Source of the DNA: a virus
Direction: 5' to 3' (one strand)
Virus record (IMG/VR): IMGVR_UViG_3300044695_002820
Span: 1 to 26,962 of that record
DNA: 26,962 nucleotides
The first letter of the stretch is position 1. Each line of letters opens with the position of its first letter. Of the stretch, positions 2,526-26,336 are shown one piece after another. A program made the translations under genes and the position numbers. Below the pieces are notes generated by a model. It saw only the letters and a program-made list of their open reading frames with translations. It had not been told where the DNA came from and did not search any database.

Positions 2526-3803
2526 ATGCAATTCAGGCTATGGCCAAAATTTAGGACAGAAAAGCGGAGCAGTTTATCGGCGCCGCCTGACTGGTTAGTT
2601 AATACGCTAAGCAATATTTTCGGTATTCAAACTAAATCAGGGCAGGCCGTGAACGAACAAACTGCGCTAAGTATTAGCAGCGTTCACGCTTGCGTTCGCG
2701 TTATATCGGACGGGATAGCCGGGCTAAGCTTGAAAATTTATAACGACAGCAACGGCGAGAAAATACAGATTACCAATAACTATGCGGCGGCTTTATTGAA
2801 CGATCCTAACAGCTACCAAACCAAGTTTGATTTTATCAAATACATGGTGGGGCAGTTAGTATTGAAGGGCAACGCATACGCTTTTATAAACCGTGACGCT
2901 AGATTTATCGCAATCGAATTGCACCCAATACGTAGCGAGTTTGTCGAGCCGATTATGGAAGACGGGCAGCTGTTTTATAAAGTGAACGCGAAGGGCTTCC
3001 CCGGCATGATTCCGGCAACGGATATGCTGCACTTTAAAGGCCTTTGTACTGATAACCCATTGAAGGGTAAAAATCCGATTCAGGTGCATGCCGAGAGTTT
3101 GGGTATTGATTTGGCCGCTATTGGCTCCAGCGCTAGCGTTTACAAAAACGGGATATTGAAATTTTTGCTTACTAGCGATGCAATGATAAAGCCCGAACAG
3201 GCCAGCGCATTGAAGAATAGTTTGGATGACGTAATTAACGGACAGGCGCGCAGCACTGTATTGCCGAACGGCGTAAAGATGGAGCGTTTGAGTTTGTCGC
3301 CTGAGGAAGCGCAATATATTGAACAGCGTAAATTCTCAGCGCAAGAAATTGCTCGAATGTTTGGCGTGCCTTCCTCTATGATTGGCGCCAACGATGGAGG
3401 CGTTAAGTCGTCCGTTGAGCAAGAGTTTCAAGATTTTTATGCACGCACGCTGTTAGCTTACGCGATTAATATCGAGCAAGAGATGGGCCGCAAGCTATTG
3501 ACTGAACAGGATAAACCAACGATGTATTTTAAGTTTAATTTTAATTCGCTGTTGCGAGCCACGGCCAACGATCGCGCGGACTTTTATAATAAAGGTATTC
3601 GCGGCGGATGGTTATCGCCAAACGAGGCGCGCATGTGGGAAGATATGAACGGGTACACCGACGGCGCTGGCTATATGGTTGAATCAAATTTAATACCAGC
3701 GGACAGAATGGACGAATATATGGAGGCTAAAATAATTAACCTAACAAACAAGGCATTAAACAACAATAACCCAACGGGTGACAATAATAATACACAGGCA
3801 TGA
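2526..3803 (+). CDS. Portal protein (HK97 family)
   Basis: Dodecameric ring at one capsid vertex through which DNA enters and leaves and on which the terminase and tail dock. At 425 residues it has the normal HK97-portal length. Recognisable features are the N-terminal SISSVHACVRVISDGIAGL segment, the GNAYAFI strand, the SAQEIARMFGVPSSMIG segment near residues 272-288, and the C-terminal helix-rich region ending in an Asn-rich tail. There is no Shine-Dalgarno; the start follows an AT-rich leader, as usual in Bacteroidota. The stop overlaps the protease ATG by four bases. Confidence 0.95.
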   Translation: MQFRLWPKFRTEKRSSLSAPPDWLVNTLSNIFGIQTKSGQAVNEQTALSISSVHACVRVISDGIAGLSLKIYNDSNGEKIQITNNYAAALLNDPNSYQTKFDFIKYMVGQLVLKGNAYAFINRDARFIAIELHPIRSEFVEPIMEDGQLFYKVNAKGFPGMIPATDMLHFKGLCTDNPLKGKNPIQVHAESLGIDLAAIGSSASVYKNGILKFLLTSDAMIKPEQASALKNSLDDVINGQARSTVLPNGVKMERLSLSPEEAQYIEQRKFSAQEIARMFGVPSSMIGANDGGVKSSVEQEFQDFYARTLLAYAINIEQEMGRKLLTEQDKPTMYFKFNFNSLLRATANDRADFYNKGIRGGWLSPNEARMWEDMNGYTDGAGYMVESNLIPADRMDEYMEAKIINLTNKALNNNNPTGDNNNTQA

Positions 3804-13544: not shown

Positions 13545-14642
13545 ATGCCACTAATAGGCGTTGGCGTAGGTTTAAATCGCCAAAGATATGGGCAATTTCA
13601 AAACGGTTATTCATCCCGTGTGATTGCCGATGGTGGAACTATTGAGTCGTTGGAATGCGTAGCGGCTGCATCATCATTGTTGCAATCTGCATCCTTGTTA
13701 TTAATACCCAGTGGGTACAAAGCGGGGGTTGCCTATGCCGAACTACCCGCCACTGGCAATGGAGATTTAACTTGGTCAAGGAATAGTGTAGCCAATAGAA
13801 CGCAGAGCGATGGAACTATTGCCCAAGTTGCGGCTAACGTACCACGTTTATCCTATATGTACGGCAGTTGCCCCGCATTGTTGTTAGAACCGCAGAGAAC
13901 GAATTTAGTTTTCCCAAGTGCAACGGCTACTACCCAAACAAGGACAGTAACGGCAGTTGCATATACTTTAAGTTTTTGGGGTACGGGTAGTGTTACTTTA
14001 TCTGGCGTAGCAACTGCTACATTAAATGGAACGGGTGCAAATAATAGGGTAACTTTAACCTTTACCCCAACGGCAGGAAGTTTAACGCTAACAGTTAGCG
14101 GGAGTGTTACGAATTGGCAGTTAGAAGCGGGTAGTTATGCAACTACTTTAATAGATACAACATCCGCAACAGCAACAAGATTGGCAGATTCATTCACCCG
14201 AAATAACATCTACACCAATGGGTTAATTTCTGCAAGTGGTGGTACTTGGTATGTTGAGTTGAGGAATAATGTGGCGTATGTGAGGGATAGTTCTGGTAAT
14301 ACTATTTTGATTGGTGACACTAGCGCTGGTGGTTCAAATGCTATTTTGATTCGTAACGATACATTATCTGCAATACGTTTGAGAATAAGTAAAAATGTCG
14401 CTGGGAGTCAAACAACTTTATTTACAACAACAACAGACACAGTGAAAATTGCAATTAAGTGGAATGGTACAAGTGCGGATGTATTTGTGAACGGGACAAA
14501 GCAAGTTAGTGCAACTGCATTCACAACAACACTAATGGAATTTTTAGCAGCAAGTGGTACTCAAGTACCTACATTCATCCAAGCAATGGCACTATTCCCT
14601 ACTCCGTTAAGTGATTCCGATTGTACCCTAATCACCACATAA
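13545..14642 (+). CDS. Lectin-like tail fibre / receptor-binding protein
   Basis: A 365-residue Ser/Thr/Gly-rich beta protein. The part around 75-120 (GDLTWSRNSVANRTQSDGTI ending in LLLEPQRTNLV) is a motif common in phage tail proteins; around 190-212 the QLEAGSYATTLIDTTSATATRLADS segment is the typical end of a carbohydrate-binding-like domain; the remainder (TWYVELRNN, RLRISKNVAGSQTTLF, KIAIKWNGTSADVFVNGTKQ) fits a concanavalin-like LamG jelly roll. This combination suggests binding of surface glycans of the host. It follows the small structural protein by one base and precedes the lysis region, typical for a receptor-binding gene. Confidence 0.78.
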   Translation: MPLIGVGVGLNRQRYGQFQNGYSSRVIADGGTIESLECVAAASSLLQSASLLLIPSGYKAGVAYAELPATGNGDLTWSRNSVANRTQSDGTIAQVAANVPRLSYMYGSCPALLLEPQRTNLVFPSATATTQTRTVTAVAYTLSFWGTGSVTLSGVATATLNGTGANNRVTLTFTPTAGSLTLTVSGSVTNWQLEAGSYATTLIDTTSATATRLADSFTRNNIYTNGLISASGGTWYVELRNNVAYVRDSSGNTILIGDTSAGGSNAILIRNDTLSAIRLRISKNVAGSQTTLFTTTTDTVKIAIKWNGTSADVFVNGTKQVSATAFTTTLMEFLAASGTQVPTFIQAMALFPTPLSDSDCTLITT

Positions 14643-23170: not shown

Positions 23171-23391
23171 TAGTAAAATACAGAATAGTTAGAAAATATG
23201 GTATATGCTATCCACAAAAGAGGCATACAGGTTTAAAATGGATTCTTGGTTGGTTGCCAGTATTTGTTGAAAATGATGCTAATTATAATCATGTTTTTAA
23301 AGTAAGAGATTTTGAAAAAGCAAAAGAGGCAATTAGACGCGATAAAAAAGGATTGAACGAAATATCAATATTTAATAAATTTCATTTATGA
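23167..23391 (+). CDS. Hypothetical basic protein
   Basis: A 74-residue basic protein (IVKYRIVRKYGICYPQKRHT, then LKWILGWLPVFVEN, then KVRDFEKAKEAIRRDKKG). The central hydrophobic part is too short and interrupted for a clear membrane helix. AT-rich compared with the DnaA-like gene after it. It overlaps both neighbours by four bases. A similar layout (K-Y...W..V....F....A...I) is common in small proteins of Bacteroidota phages; no function known. Confidence 0.68.
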   Translation: MIVKYRIVRKYGICYPQKRHTGLKWILGWLPVFVENDANYNHVFKVRDFEKAKEAIRRDKKGLNEISIFNKFHL

Positions 23392-23807
23392 TAGTACTTG
23401 CAGAAAACAACGGCCGCATCGATATCACCATTAAAGGCGAGTGGATGGCGAGTTTTAAGACGTGGGAACAGGCGATATTCTATCAGGAATTTCTAAAAAA
23501 CAACAATATTGGCGGCGATTTAGATCGTTTGTACAACCATGTTTCTACTATGTACGGCCTAAAACAGAACGAAATTAGGGGTAAATATAAGCGCAGCAAC
23601 ATAGTCGAGGCGCGCGTGGTATTCTCGAACATAGCCCGGAATGACCTAGAATATACCTATTTAAAAATTGGGCAATACCTAAGGCGCGACCATAGCACGG
23701 TAATCCACCATAAGCATGTATTTGAGATGTGGCAGAATATGCCGAAGTATTACGGCAAGCAGCTGGCAAAGTATGACGCCGTTTTGAGAGGTTGGAGGGG
23801 GGAATAA
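23388..23807 (+). CDS. DnaA domain IV-like DNA-binding protein
   Basis: A 139-residue protein whose C-terminal half (about 48-120) matches the DNA-binding domain IV of DnaA: EIRGKYKRSNIVEARVVFSN, IGQYLRRDHSTVIHHKH, with the DnaA signature RDHSTVIHH at 100-108. The ATPase domain is absent, and the N-terminal 45 residues are a short beta-helix part of another origin. Such orphan domain-IV proteins may bind replication origins or interfere with host DnaA. It ends the accessory operon just before the structured RNA and the primase-helicase, close to the iteron region at 26323-26584, supporting a replication role (inference). Confidence 0.87.
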   Translation: MIVLAENNGRIDITIKGEWMASFKTWEQAIFYQEFLKNNNIGGDLDRLYNHVSTMYGLKQNEIRGKYKRSNIVEARVVFSNIARNDLEYTYLKIGQYLRRDHSTVIHHKHVFEMWQNMPKYYGKQLAKYDAVLRGWRGE

Positions 23808-23822
23808 TTTTTCCTATATTTG
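23792..23822 (+). promoter_or_regulatory. Promoter of structured RNA
   Basis: TTG at 23792-23794, 20 bases, TATATTTG at 23815-23822, a good Bacteroidota promoter overlapping the end of the DnaA-like gene. The start is expected near 23827, which is the first base of the 5' hairpin. Confidence 0.8.
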
Positions 23823-23826
23823 TGCC

Positions 23827-23918
23827 GTTAACTAGGATGTGCAAGATCCTTATAGTTAAAAGATTTTTGCCCTATTAAATGGACGTACTTGCACTGCGGC
23901 CATTTGATGGGGTTTTTT
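23827..23918 (+). ncRNA. Structured small RNA / leader with complementary hairpin loops
   Basis: From the expected start near 23827 the RNA forms hairpin 1: TTAACT (23828-23833) with AGTTAA (23854-23859) and AGGAT (23834-23838) with ATCCT (23846-23850), a three-base bulge, and the 7-base loop GTGCAAG (23839-23845). A ten-base linker leads to hairpin 2: CCCTATTAAATGG (23870-23882) pairs over 13 bp with CCATTTGATGGGG (23900-23912), three pairs being G-U, with a 17-base loop. That loop contains CTTGCAC (23888-23894), the exact complement of the whole loop of hairpin 1. The end is a T tract. No reading frame fits. It may be a free small RNA or an attenuator of the downstream genes. Confidence 0.8.
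23870..23918 (+). terminator. Strong intrinsic terminator
   Basis: Thirteen-bp stem (23870-23882 with 23900-23912) followed by TTTTTT (23913-23918) then ATTT. The next ATG is at 23923, so expression of the following genes needs read-through or another signal. Confidence 0.85.
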
Positions 23919-23922
23919 ATTT

Positions 23923-24225
23923 ATGATAAAATACATCGACAAAGAGGCTGATTTTACGGAATGTAGAACCGCCTGCTACTATGTAGCATTTGAATTAAGC
24001 GATTACGAGCTTATTAGAAAATTAAAATGGATTAAATATAATTGCCGTTTACAAAGTGTGGCATTTATAAGAAATTTTGAATGTCAATTGCTAACAATTT
24101 ATTTATTGCAAAATTCTGATGACAGTCAATTAATTAAAATTTGGGCGAAAAAAGCTTTTAATGAAGATCCTGAATTTTTAACAAGGACACGACAAAAAAG
24201 TTTGGATAAGGAGCTAAATTCATGA
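23923..24225 (+). CDS. Hypothetical protein before primase
   Basis: A 100-residue protein, helical, with several cysteines (ECRTACYYVAFELSDYELIRKLKWIKYNC) and a charged end (DPEFLTRTRQKSLDKELNS). It begins four bases after the terminator T tract and overlaps the primase-helicase by four bases, so both are probably translated together from read-through transcripts. AT-rich like the first part of the primase gene. Function unknown; a replication accessory role is suggested only by position. Confidence 0.72.
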   Translation: MIKYIDKEADFTECRTACYYVAFELSDYELIRKLKWIKYNCRLQSVAFIRNFECQLLTIYLLQNSDDSQLIKIWAKKAFNEDPEFLTRTRQKSLDKELNS

Positions 24226-26336
24226 AAGTTTCCTTTTATCCAACAATTAAAAATACCGATAGCAAAGAAGTTGCAGATATCGTAAGTATTTTAGAAAACA
24301 TAAAAAACGGGATTTACGAGGATTATGTTTATCCAGTTCGAAATGCGAAAACTGATAAAGACAGAAAAGAGGCAAAAGCAAAGGCCCCCTATATAACAGT
24401 TAGCGGAACATTTACACAACGTAAAAATGACGCAATAATTAAACACAGCGGATTGATTGCCATTGATTTTGACCATGTGGAGGACATAGGCGACGCGTTT
24501 AATTTGCTTATTAACGACGTTTACAGCTTTGCCGTTTTTAGGTCAATTTCAGGAACTGGTATTTGTGTGATTGTAAAAATTGATGGTAAAAAACATGCAG
24601 AGGCTTTTGAGGGATTAGAGCAATACTATTGGTTAAATTATAAATTACAATTAGACAGAGCTTGCAAGGACGTAAGCCGTCCGCGCTATTTGTCATACGA
24701 TCCTGATTTGTTTTTAAATGAAAAATCAGAAATATTTAAGAAATATTTACCAAAACCAACTAAAGAAGAAGTAAAATTTATTACGACATTCAAAAAATCT
24801 GATCATTATCAAAATAAATTTGAAAGGATTTTATATAGTATAAATTTTGATATTACAAAAGAATACAATGTTTGGATTAAATTAGGGTATGCTATTTATT
24901 CAGAATATGGTGAGGCAGGGTTAGATTATTATCAGTATTTAAGTCAATTTCATCCTAAATATAATTCGGTTGAAACGGAAGAAAAATATAAAAGTTTTTA
25001 CGGCAAAGATTCAAACAATAAGGCTTGTATTGCCAGTTTTTATTTTGAATGCTTAAGAAATGGTATCAGTGTAACTGACGAAAAAGAAATTAAAACAAGA
25101 CAAACAGCACGCAAACTTCGCAGCGCTGGAATGACCGAAAAACAAGTAATTTCAGAAAACCCCGACTTAATCCCCGAAATAGTAGCCGAGGAATTTGCTA
25201 AGCCTGAACAGCAGCAACGTGGGCAGTTTGATATTGAGGCCTTTGAAATTTGGCTGCGTGAGCGTTTTCCCATCAAAAAAAACGAGGTTACGCGGTTTTA
25301 TGAAATGCAAGGCAAGCAGCTGGAGCAATCCGACATAAATACGATTTACATAGACGCAAAAAAGCAATTTCCAAAAGTTTCTAGGGATATAGTGGAGAGT
25401 GTTATTTTCTCAAATTATACGCCAAGTTACAACCCAATTAAATCGTATTTTCAGGGCCTAAAATGGGATGGAGTAGACCATATTGCCAAACTTGCGGAAT
25501 CAATAAATAGCAACACAGGGACAGAGGAATATCGCGAATTTGGCCTGCGAGCGTGGCTTATTGGCATAGTTGAAAGCATCCTAAAAGGCAAACCAAATAT
25601 TTTGTGTCTGGTATTGGCAGGAAAACAAAATACGGGTAAATCGACGTTTTTCACGCGGTTATTGCCTGAGCAATTAAACAGATATTTTGCCATGTCGCAG
25701 CTAGACCGTGGCAAGGATGACGAAATTTTAATGTGTCAATCGCTGCTGATATTTGATGACGAATTTTCGGGTAAATCCAAGCAGGACGCAAAGCACATGA
25801 AACGCATACTTTCCGCCCCATCGTTTACGCTGCGTGAGCCTTACGGACGTAATAACGTGACGCTTAAACGTATTGCTACTCTGTGCGGTACGTGCAACGA
25901 ATTAGACGTGTTAAATGATCCAACAGGGAACCGCCGTTTTATCGTGTTTGAGGTTGTCGGGCAGTTTGATTATAAGCTGTATAATAGTATCGATAAGGAG
26001 CAACTATTTGCCCAGTGCGTGGCATTGGTTAACAGCAATCAAACATCAGATTTAGAGGGGGATTTTATACAGTTAATGGAGCAAGTTAGCGAGCATTTTG
26101 TTGAGATAAGTTTAGAGGAAGAATTGATAATGCAGCATATTGGTAAAACCGATACCATACACAAACAGCGTCAATTTATGACTACAACGATGGTTAAAGT
26201 ATATTTGGAGGAATTAAGTAAGCAACATTTGAGCTTAAAAAGATTAGGCCAAATGATGAAGAAACACCAATTTGAAGAAACAAAAAGGAATGATAGAAAA
26301 GGTTATTTGGTTTTAGTAAATTATCCTACCCTTTAA
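24222..26336 (+). CDS. Primase-helicase (BT4734/VirE type)
   Basis: Replicative bifunctional enzyme, 704 residues. The N-terminal 1-165 resembles the BT4734-like domain related to archaeo-eukaryotic primases: GLIAIDFDHV with Asp82 and Asp84, RSISGTGICVIV at 107-118 and VSRPRYLSYDPDL at 151-163. A PriCT-2-like helical linker follows at about 200-280. The C-terminal 400-580 is a VirE superfamily 3 helicase: Walker A GKQNTGKST at 467-475, Walker B LLIFDDEF at 508-515, sensor GTCNE at 556-560 and arginine-finger candidates at NRRF 570-573. The last 70 residues are a winged-helix-like tail. Base composition is AT-rich up to about 25090 and less so afterwards, suggesting the two halves had different origins. 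The end overlaps the first iteron. Confidence 0.92.
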   Translation: MKVSFYPTIKNTDSKEVADIVSILENIKNGIYEDYVYPVRNAKTDKDRKEAKAKAPYITVSGTFTQRKNDAIIKHSGLIAIDFDHVEDIGDAFNLLINDVYSFAVFRSISGTGICVIVKIDGKKHAEAFEGLEQYYWLNYKLQLDRACKDVSRPRYLSYDPDLFLNEKSEIFKKYLPKPTKEEVKFITTFKKSDHYQNKFERILYSINFDITKEYNVWIKLGYAIYSEYGEAGLDYYQYLSQFHPKYNSVETEEKYKSFYGKDSNNKACIASFYFECLRNGISVTDEKEIKTRQTARKLRSAGMTEKQVISENPDLIPEIVAEEFAKPEQQQRGQFDIEAFEIWLRERFPIKKNEVTRFYEMQGKQLEQSDINTIYIDAKKQFPKVSRDIVESVIFSNYTPSYNPIKSYFQGLKWDGVDHIAKLAESINSNTGTEEYREFGLRAWLIGIVESILKGKPNILCLVLAGKQNTGKSTFFTRLLPEQLNRYFAMSQLDRGKDDEILMCQSLLIFDDEFSGKSKQDAKHMKRILSAPSFTLREPYGRNNVTLKRIATLCGTCNELDVLNDPTGNRRFIVFEVVGQFDYKLYNSIDKEQLFAQCVALVNSNQTSDLEGDFIQLMEQVSEHFVEISLEEELIMQHIGKTDTIHKQRQFMTTTMVKVYLEELSKQHLSLKRLGQMMKKHQFEETKRNDRKGYLVLVNYPTL

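Follow-up and report, generated by a model that had tools for sequence, protein, structure and literature searches.

We describe an RNA of about 92 nt with two hairpins whose loops are exactly complementary, located at 23827-23918 of virus record IMGVR_UViG_3300044695_002820 (26,962 bases; the whole record is the stretch of DNA analysed and is called the window below). Because changes in one loop are matched in the other in all relatives found, the kissing-loop fold is well supported as a real RNA family. The RNA probably determines the amount of replication protein produced by the phage, and we put at even chances the reading that it does so as a cis-acting transcription attenuator of the replication operon, with a terminator set by an intramolecular kissing loop.

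Structure and location of the RNA

Its promoters and the relatives of its primase suggest that the window comes from a Bacteroidota phage. The RNA occupies the slot between a gene encoding a DnaA domain and a 100-aa ORF that gave no Pfam match and is followed by a VapE-type primase-helicase gene. A preliminary description made from the sequence had located the RNA between a DnaA-like protein and the primase-helicase, which is correct for the window but does not extend to a general rule, since relatives also occur in other contexts. The features are as follows (R1 is the covariance model of the family).

23388..23807, + strand: upstream gene, DnaA C-terminal helix-turn-helix domain (Pfam PF08299, E 2e-13)
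23792..23822, + strand: Bacteroidota-type promoter, TTG (-33), 20-nt spacer, TATATTTG (-7), read directly
23815-23822, + strand: TATATTTG element of the promoter, read directly
23827..23918, + strand: whole predicted leader or small RNA, ~92 nt (fold z = -4.9; R1 relatives)
23828..23859, + strand: hairpin 1, lower stem of 6 bp, 3-nt bulge, upper stem of 5 bp (fold, covariation)
23839..23845, + strand: kissing loop 1, GUGCAAG, the complete 7-nt loop (covariation)
23860..23869, + strand: linker AAGAUUUUUG, nearly invariant over its first part within the subfamily (alignments A1 and A5)
23870..23912, + strand: hairpin 2, 13-bp terminator-like stem, A/G mismatch, 4-bp apical stem (fold, covariation)
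23888..23894, + strand: kissing loop 2, CUUGCAC, exact complement of loop 1 (covariation)
23913..23918, + strand: T-tract TTTTTT (T6) of the predicted intrinsic terminator, read directly
23923..24225, + strand: 100-aa ORF, first gene 3′ of the RNA, start 4 nt past the T-tract
24222..26336, + strand: VapE-type primase-helicase (BT4734-like_N, PriCT_2, VapE-like and DUF5906 domains)

The promoter was called with the established Bacteroidota promoter consensus, and the motif TAnnTTTG stands upstream of nearly every relative's RNA, as it does in the window. Promoter (TTG-N20-TATATTTG), 5′ hairpin, 13-bp terminator-like hairpin and T-tract all lie where the preliminary description had placed them. 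Hairpin 1 is built from the stems UUAACU/AGUUAA (lower) and AGGAU/AUCCU (upper). The 13-bp stem of hairpin 2 pairs 23870-23882 with 23900-23912, and its apical stem of 4 bp (23884-23887 with 23895-23898) closes loop 2. Because of this extra apical stem, the complementary segments are two complete 7-nt loops; the exact seven-base match noted earlier stands, but the partner of loop 1 is the whole of loop 2 and not part of a 17-base loop. The fold of 23827-23925 has an energy of -31.7 kcal/mol (z = -4.9), and none of 200 shuffled sequences folded as well. Hairpin 2 was absent from a simple terminator scan, which admits only loops of 3-8 nt and an unbroken stem adjacent to the T-tract. The terminator role is predicted from the sequence; a T-rich tract lies 3′ of hairpin 2 in all relatives and is degenerate in L007 (CTTTAAATTTTT) and the L325 group (CTTTAATTTT).

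The two loops change together

The first relatives came from searches with the primase and the DnaA-like protein, the same slot being read in each locus. Their loops are exact complements in L015 (GUAGGAG/CUCCUAC), in L007 (GUAGGAU/AUCCUAC) and in L008 (UCCGAAC/GUUCGGA), the last with stems unrelated to those of the window. In L015, many ATCGTCACA / TGTGACGAT repeats resembling origin iterons lie between the DnaA-like gene and the RNA (3420-3660). Further loci were sought with DNA patterns that cover the linker and the lower hairpin 1 stem and therefore contain no loop bases; these led to L060, L075 and L076, then to L313/L340, L324, L330 and the L325 group. Every pattern-found locus with a TATATTTG-type promoter has complementary loops, with the alleles GUCGCAU, GUGAGAG, GUAGCAG and GUCGCAG among them; a 6-nt version, GGGGAG/CUCCCC, was read by eye, the detector described below requiring 7 nt. 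The pattern matches L332 and L334 lack both the rest of the architecture and the loop complementarity, which fits chance pattern matches. Model R1 retrieves relatives with E-values down to 4e-29. The RNA is missing from L002, L003 and L005, where another gene fills the slot although the primases are 79-93% identical, so the primase is not strictly dependent on the RNA. Judged by eye, the gene in the slot is DNA methylase-like in L002 and L003 and acetyltransferase-like in L005.

For a single sequence, two such loops would match by chance with a probability of about 11 x 4^-7 = 7e-4, which is near the earlier estimate (well below one in a thousand); the pairing is real beyond this single-sequence chance because the relatives are decisive. 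We aligned 15 sequences (14 distinct rows; alignment A5) to R1, which itself contains no loop-loop pairs. The loop-loop helix was paired in 100% of the cells, where cells are sequences and not independent events, and all pairs were Watson-Crick with zero G-U; two-sided changes occurred at 4 of its 7 pairs. An earlier alignment of seven sequences likewise had the loop-loop helix paired in all cells, with 4/7 pairs changed on both sides. Two-sided changes were also found in A5 at all five pairs of the hairpin 1 upper stem and at 12/17 pairs of hairpin 2, whose terminator stem, unlike the loop-loop helix, tolerates many G-U pairs. Sliding the partners by 1-3 columns lowered the pairing of the whole structure from 94.8% to 36-52% (about 50% for one column), and the covariation measures for the whole structure exceeded those of all 500 shuffles. 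Uncoordinated loop changes in homologous phages had been named at the outset as the observation that would speak against a kissing structure; the changes found are coordinated, and all of the ~18 loop alleles are complementary. Chance complementarity in an ordinary terminated leader, to which a single 7-nt match would still lend itself, one case alone being no proof, is thus refuted by the covariation together with the detector and column-slide controls, and we assign it a negligible probability.

Detector controls and conserved spacing

We applied a strict detector that looks for TAnnTTTG, a hairpin, and a complement of 7 or more nt to its loop within a terminator-like hairpin. It gave 12 matches among 2,330 promoter-like sites in the loci, some of which had been chosen for sequence similarity to the window RNA, versus 3 among 11,650 shuffled sites. 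Four of 642 sites matched in ten phage sequences (405 kb) and none of 923 in 893 kb of Bacteroidota chromosome; because the phage set includes known carriers of the RNA, this contrast is illustrative and not a clean test. A looser detector was dropped, as it gave many matches in AT-rich shuffles.

Six lineages with no visible sequence similarity all have 42-47 nt between the paired 7-8-mers. If spacings were uniform, the probability that they fall within any 6-nt window would be about 1e-5; for this calculation the independence of the lineages was judged by eye, and L231, L237 and L244, which have larger gaps, were set aside. Roughly 12-21 nt separate the end of loop 2 from the T-tract. In the window group, where hairpin 1 is bulged, the linker measures 9-10 nt; the unbulged hairpin 1 of L240, mumin and snusmum RNA 2 is followed by a longer one, of about 15-22 nt.

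A wider group that includes cultured phages

R1 and the neighbours of other primases led to L229, L231, L237 and L240. In L231 (2587-2714) and L237 (2872-2996), loop 1 finds its complement in an internal loop of hairpin 2, next to an additional small apical hairpin, and the pairing is kept although these details of hairpin 2 differ; L237 also lacks a clear TAnnTTTG promoter motif. Matches to the tRNA family in the same two loci (L231 1050-1156, 107 bases; L237 838-927, 90 bases) are longer than usual.

Cultured, virulent Flavobacterium phages of hosts LMO6/LMO9 carry three alleles, GUGGAACG, GUGAGACG and GUGAGAAG, each with its exact complement. In mumin, mymlan and snusmum the pair GUGGAACG/CGUUCCAC lies upstream of a small gene, a helicase and VapE. 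The RNA of lillamy and its relatives is ~91% identical to the mumin type, has the loops GUGAGACG/CGUCUCAC in lillamy, and precedes a different replication module, one that encodes a TOPRIM primase. The loops of morran are GUGAGAAG/CUUCUCAC. Flavobacterium phage 11b carries CGGGCAGG/CCUGCCCG upstream of a DUF6291 gene. RNAs without visible sequence similarity keep the same layout, and in nearly all cases the genes downstream serve replication (VapE-type primase, DUF6291/HTH protein plus DnaB, or TOPRIM primase). One extra copy precedes an HNH endonuclease: snusmum has a second, different kissing leader directly 5′ of a NUMOD4/HNH endonuclease gene, and this leader is found in 34 Flavobacterium phage records, for example at the following position.

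L259 (MN812234.1) 13649-13745: second leader, GUCGUCG/CGACGAC, before the NUMOD4/HNH gene

The loops of the two leaders of one phage are different and not cross-complementary. As a separate observation, the leader is ~91% conserved between L260 and L259 while the replication genes after it belong to different modules, which places it at a boundary of module exchange.

Proposed function and alternatives

Promoter, leader, terminator-like hairpin and start codon follow one another in the same orientation in the window and 17 relatives, with the promoter unclear in L237. Because the start codon lies 4-44 nt past the T-tract in 18/18 examined cases, attenuation is the most likely role. The preliminary description had tied a kissing RNA with its own promoter and terminator to the replication genes; this association stands, with a promoter-like site and a terminator-like end that are predicted from the sequence. 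The sequences show the covariation, spacing and position of the structure directly, and from these we infer transcription, termination and pairing within one molecule. Transcription would start at the base of hairpin 1, which would fold first and present its loop; loop 2, emerging from RNA polymerase, would then pair with loop 1 of the same molecule through 7-8 Watson-Crick pairs, so that the closed kissing structure would form just as the terminator hairpin is completed and the polymerase reaches the T-tract. Most transcripts would stop there, giving a compact RNA of ~90 nt, and the fraction reading through would supply the replication proteins. The kissing contact would set the strength or timing of the terminator, and an altered contact would alter the supply of replication proteins.

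The constant spacing of 42-47 nt suggests pairing within one molecule and, together with the finding that the window record (perhaps incomplete) holds no second target site above chance, the sole complement being loop 2 of the same RNA, favours an intramolecular contact over the analogy with plasmid copy-number RNAs. Of the two roles considered in the preliminary description, attenuation is therefore retained as the most likely by the position of the start codon, and plasmid-like pairing between molecules is less favoured. Two leaders in one phage that are not cross-complementary suit independent cis elements, and the longer linker where hairpin 1 is unbulged is what a closed structure would seem to require; with the 9-10 nt linker of the window subfamily, the RNA would have to bend sharply for intramolecular kissing, possibly where the conserved 3-nt bulge lies. 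Minimum free energy folds of 18 members contained no shared alternative (antiterminator) helix, the folding being pseudoknot-free and so unable to exclude one.

The main rival to the attenuator is action between copies, which we consider unlikely while still giving it appreciable weight. A terminated RNA would pair with new copies, leading to termination or a dimer, so that rising copy number would repress the replication genes; each loop allele would then define a group of its own specificity, comparable to plasmid incompatibility or to the immunity given by P4 CI. The two exposed loops are perfectly self-complementary, as this requires, and P4 provides a precedent, a sense RNA that causes termination within the replication operon from which it is made (PMC4825925). 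The LMO6/LMO9 phages differ in alleles, one pair within an RNA of ~91% identity, as specificity switching would give, although compensated drift explains the alleles equally well. The conserved loop spacing and the presence of two independent leaders in a single phage speak for action in cis instead, nothing besides the RNA itself is an above-chance target in the window genome, and the mumin-group phages are virulent (PMC7077304), so that lysogenic immunity would be unneeded. We find it improbable that the product is a stable small RNA, protected by the kissing fold or using it to present a region such as AAAAGAU to a host or phage target, with incidental read-through. Its compact fold, own promoter and terminator-like end would suit such an RNA, as would a linker that is nearly invariant in the subfamily (A5) while loops and upper stems vary; however, the linker is not conserved in the wider group (L008, L240, mumin, 11b), where the place before a start codon is, and no extended target was found in the same genome.

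Slightly more doubtful still is recognition of the kissing structure by RNA polymerase or by a phage or host protein, with a resulting change in elongation (antitermination or processing) like that caused by the put RNAs of HK022. A fold that is kept while its sequence is free, right where a replication operon begins, is compatible with recognition, but the wider group shares no invariant nucleotides that could be recognised, the terminator-like element belongs to the structure itself, and no candidate protein was identified. A signal acting as DNA (an origin, a recombination junction or inverted repeats bound by a protein) appears very improbable: the boundary position in the replication module, the RNA that stays in place while modules differ between mumin and lillamy, as at a junction, and the iteron-like repeats near the RNA of L015 would agree with it, against which stand the fixed orientation with a promoter before and a T-tract and start codon after, the placement of the complements exactly in hairpin loops, the covariation of the terminator stem with G-U allowed, and the second copy before an endonuclease gene.

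Several narrower candidates were rejected. Leader-peptide attenuation does not fit hairpin 1, in which, by eye, an ATG opens 13 codons in the window, reads ATG-TAG in L015 and L007 and is absent from L075/L076. The U33/A37-like positions of an anticodon-loop mimic are conserved in the subfamily only, and the YUNR U-turn motif is not conserved. A replication origin or primer RNA was rejected in view of the second copy before the endonuclease gene, and lysogenic immunity in view of the virulent phages among the carriers.

Comparison with known systems

The preliminary description knew no named RNA class with this layout, and our scan with Rfam 15 agrees: neither the window nor 13 member loci gave a match at the gathering score. 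A weak match of the window to FuFi-1 (20.6 bits, cut-off 59.6) did not recur in L075 and was discarded. The c4 antisense RNA/P4 CI family (RF01695) was absent at the gathering threshold from the window and the 13 loci, and at E <= 5 from the window slice.

P4 CI is a short RNA made where a phage replication operon begins; the same transcript also carries its complements, and the replication genes are controlled through premature termination (PMC4825925). The RNA described here shares the position and the same-transcript complement; whereas P4 CI is excised and pairs with the separate seqA and seqC, the partners here are two hairpin loops of one ~90-nt RNA, which, unlike P4 CI, ends in an intrinsic-terminator-like hairpin and occurs in virulent Bacteroidota phages. 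Attenuators of the pT181 type are replication-gene leaders that have a terminator hairpin and depend on loop-loop kissing for the decisive contact (PMC4878617), all of which recurs here; in pT181, however, the kissing partner is a separate antisense RNA and the switch is an antiterminator helix, whereas here the complement belongs to the strand that carries loop 1 and the folds revealed no antiterminator helix. Relative to these nearest working analogues, the distinguishing design is that both kissing partners lie in one strand, with one loop inside the terminator hairpin. A promoter scan, which omits Bacteroidota promoters, returned one weak minus-strand site (24064-24035), its totals being no higher than in shuffles.

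RNAI and RNAII of ColE1 also kiss through complete, fully complementary 7-nt loops; they are two RNAs from opposite strands that control primer formation, while the present RNA is an mRNA leader. The put RNAs of HK022 are two-hairpin RNAs at the start of phage operons that act in cis on transcription, but they are strongly conserved and do not end in a terminator of their own, whereas in the window type the sequence is free, the pairing alone is conserved and the end is terminator-like. Attenuator leaders are thus already known, and the kissing-terminator design seems not to be; in the open-access papers searched, we found no description of such a leader. HMP2_4078, a Bacteroidetes candidate near a D5 primase domain (Genome Biology 2021, PMC8040213), may or may not be related.

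That these RNAs form a new regulatory class, widespread in Bacteroidota phages, as an intrinsic terminator under the control of intramolecular kissing or as a self-complementary copy-counting RNA, with freely exchangeable loop codes that keep each leader insulated from the other leaders of a cell, we rate a little short of an even chance. The family is a structured RNA absent from Rfam and present in cultured phages (the LMO6/LMO9 Flavobacterium phages and 11b), and because these carriers are already in culture, control of replication genes in Bacteroidota phages is directly testable, with the natural coordinated loop alleles serving as ready-made compensatory mutants. If terminator strength depends on a programmable kissing loop, the RNA would be a useful compact control element.

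Further searches and candidate leaders

A search of 296 Bacteroidota genomes with R1 gave one weak match, and a separate search of three genomes gave one more; locus L248, in an ordinary chromosomal region, was rejected, and locus L249 had a low R1 score. The blastn comparison of the window region and the L075 RNA with phages gave no match. None of the matches from the genome pattern scan was accepted by the kissing detector, and a loose pattern was set aside because the matches listed were mostly chance loci. Two loci hold further candidates. L244 (2009-2135) has AGUGUACG/CGUACACU at a spacing of 69 nt, with a weaker fold, before a gene of 232 aa and a primase-like gene. In L243 (2365-2490), after TATATTTG and upstream of a distant primase, an 11-nt complement (GCTTACCTCAC / GTGGGGTAAGC) is interleaved with a terminator-like stem CCAACCA / TGGTTGG and is possibly a different, pseudoknotted leader.
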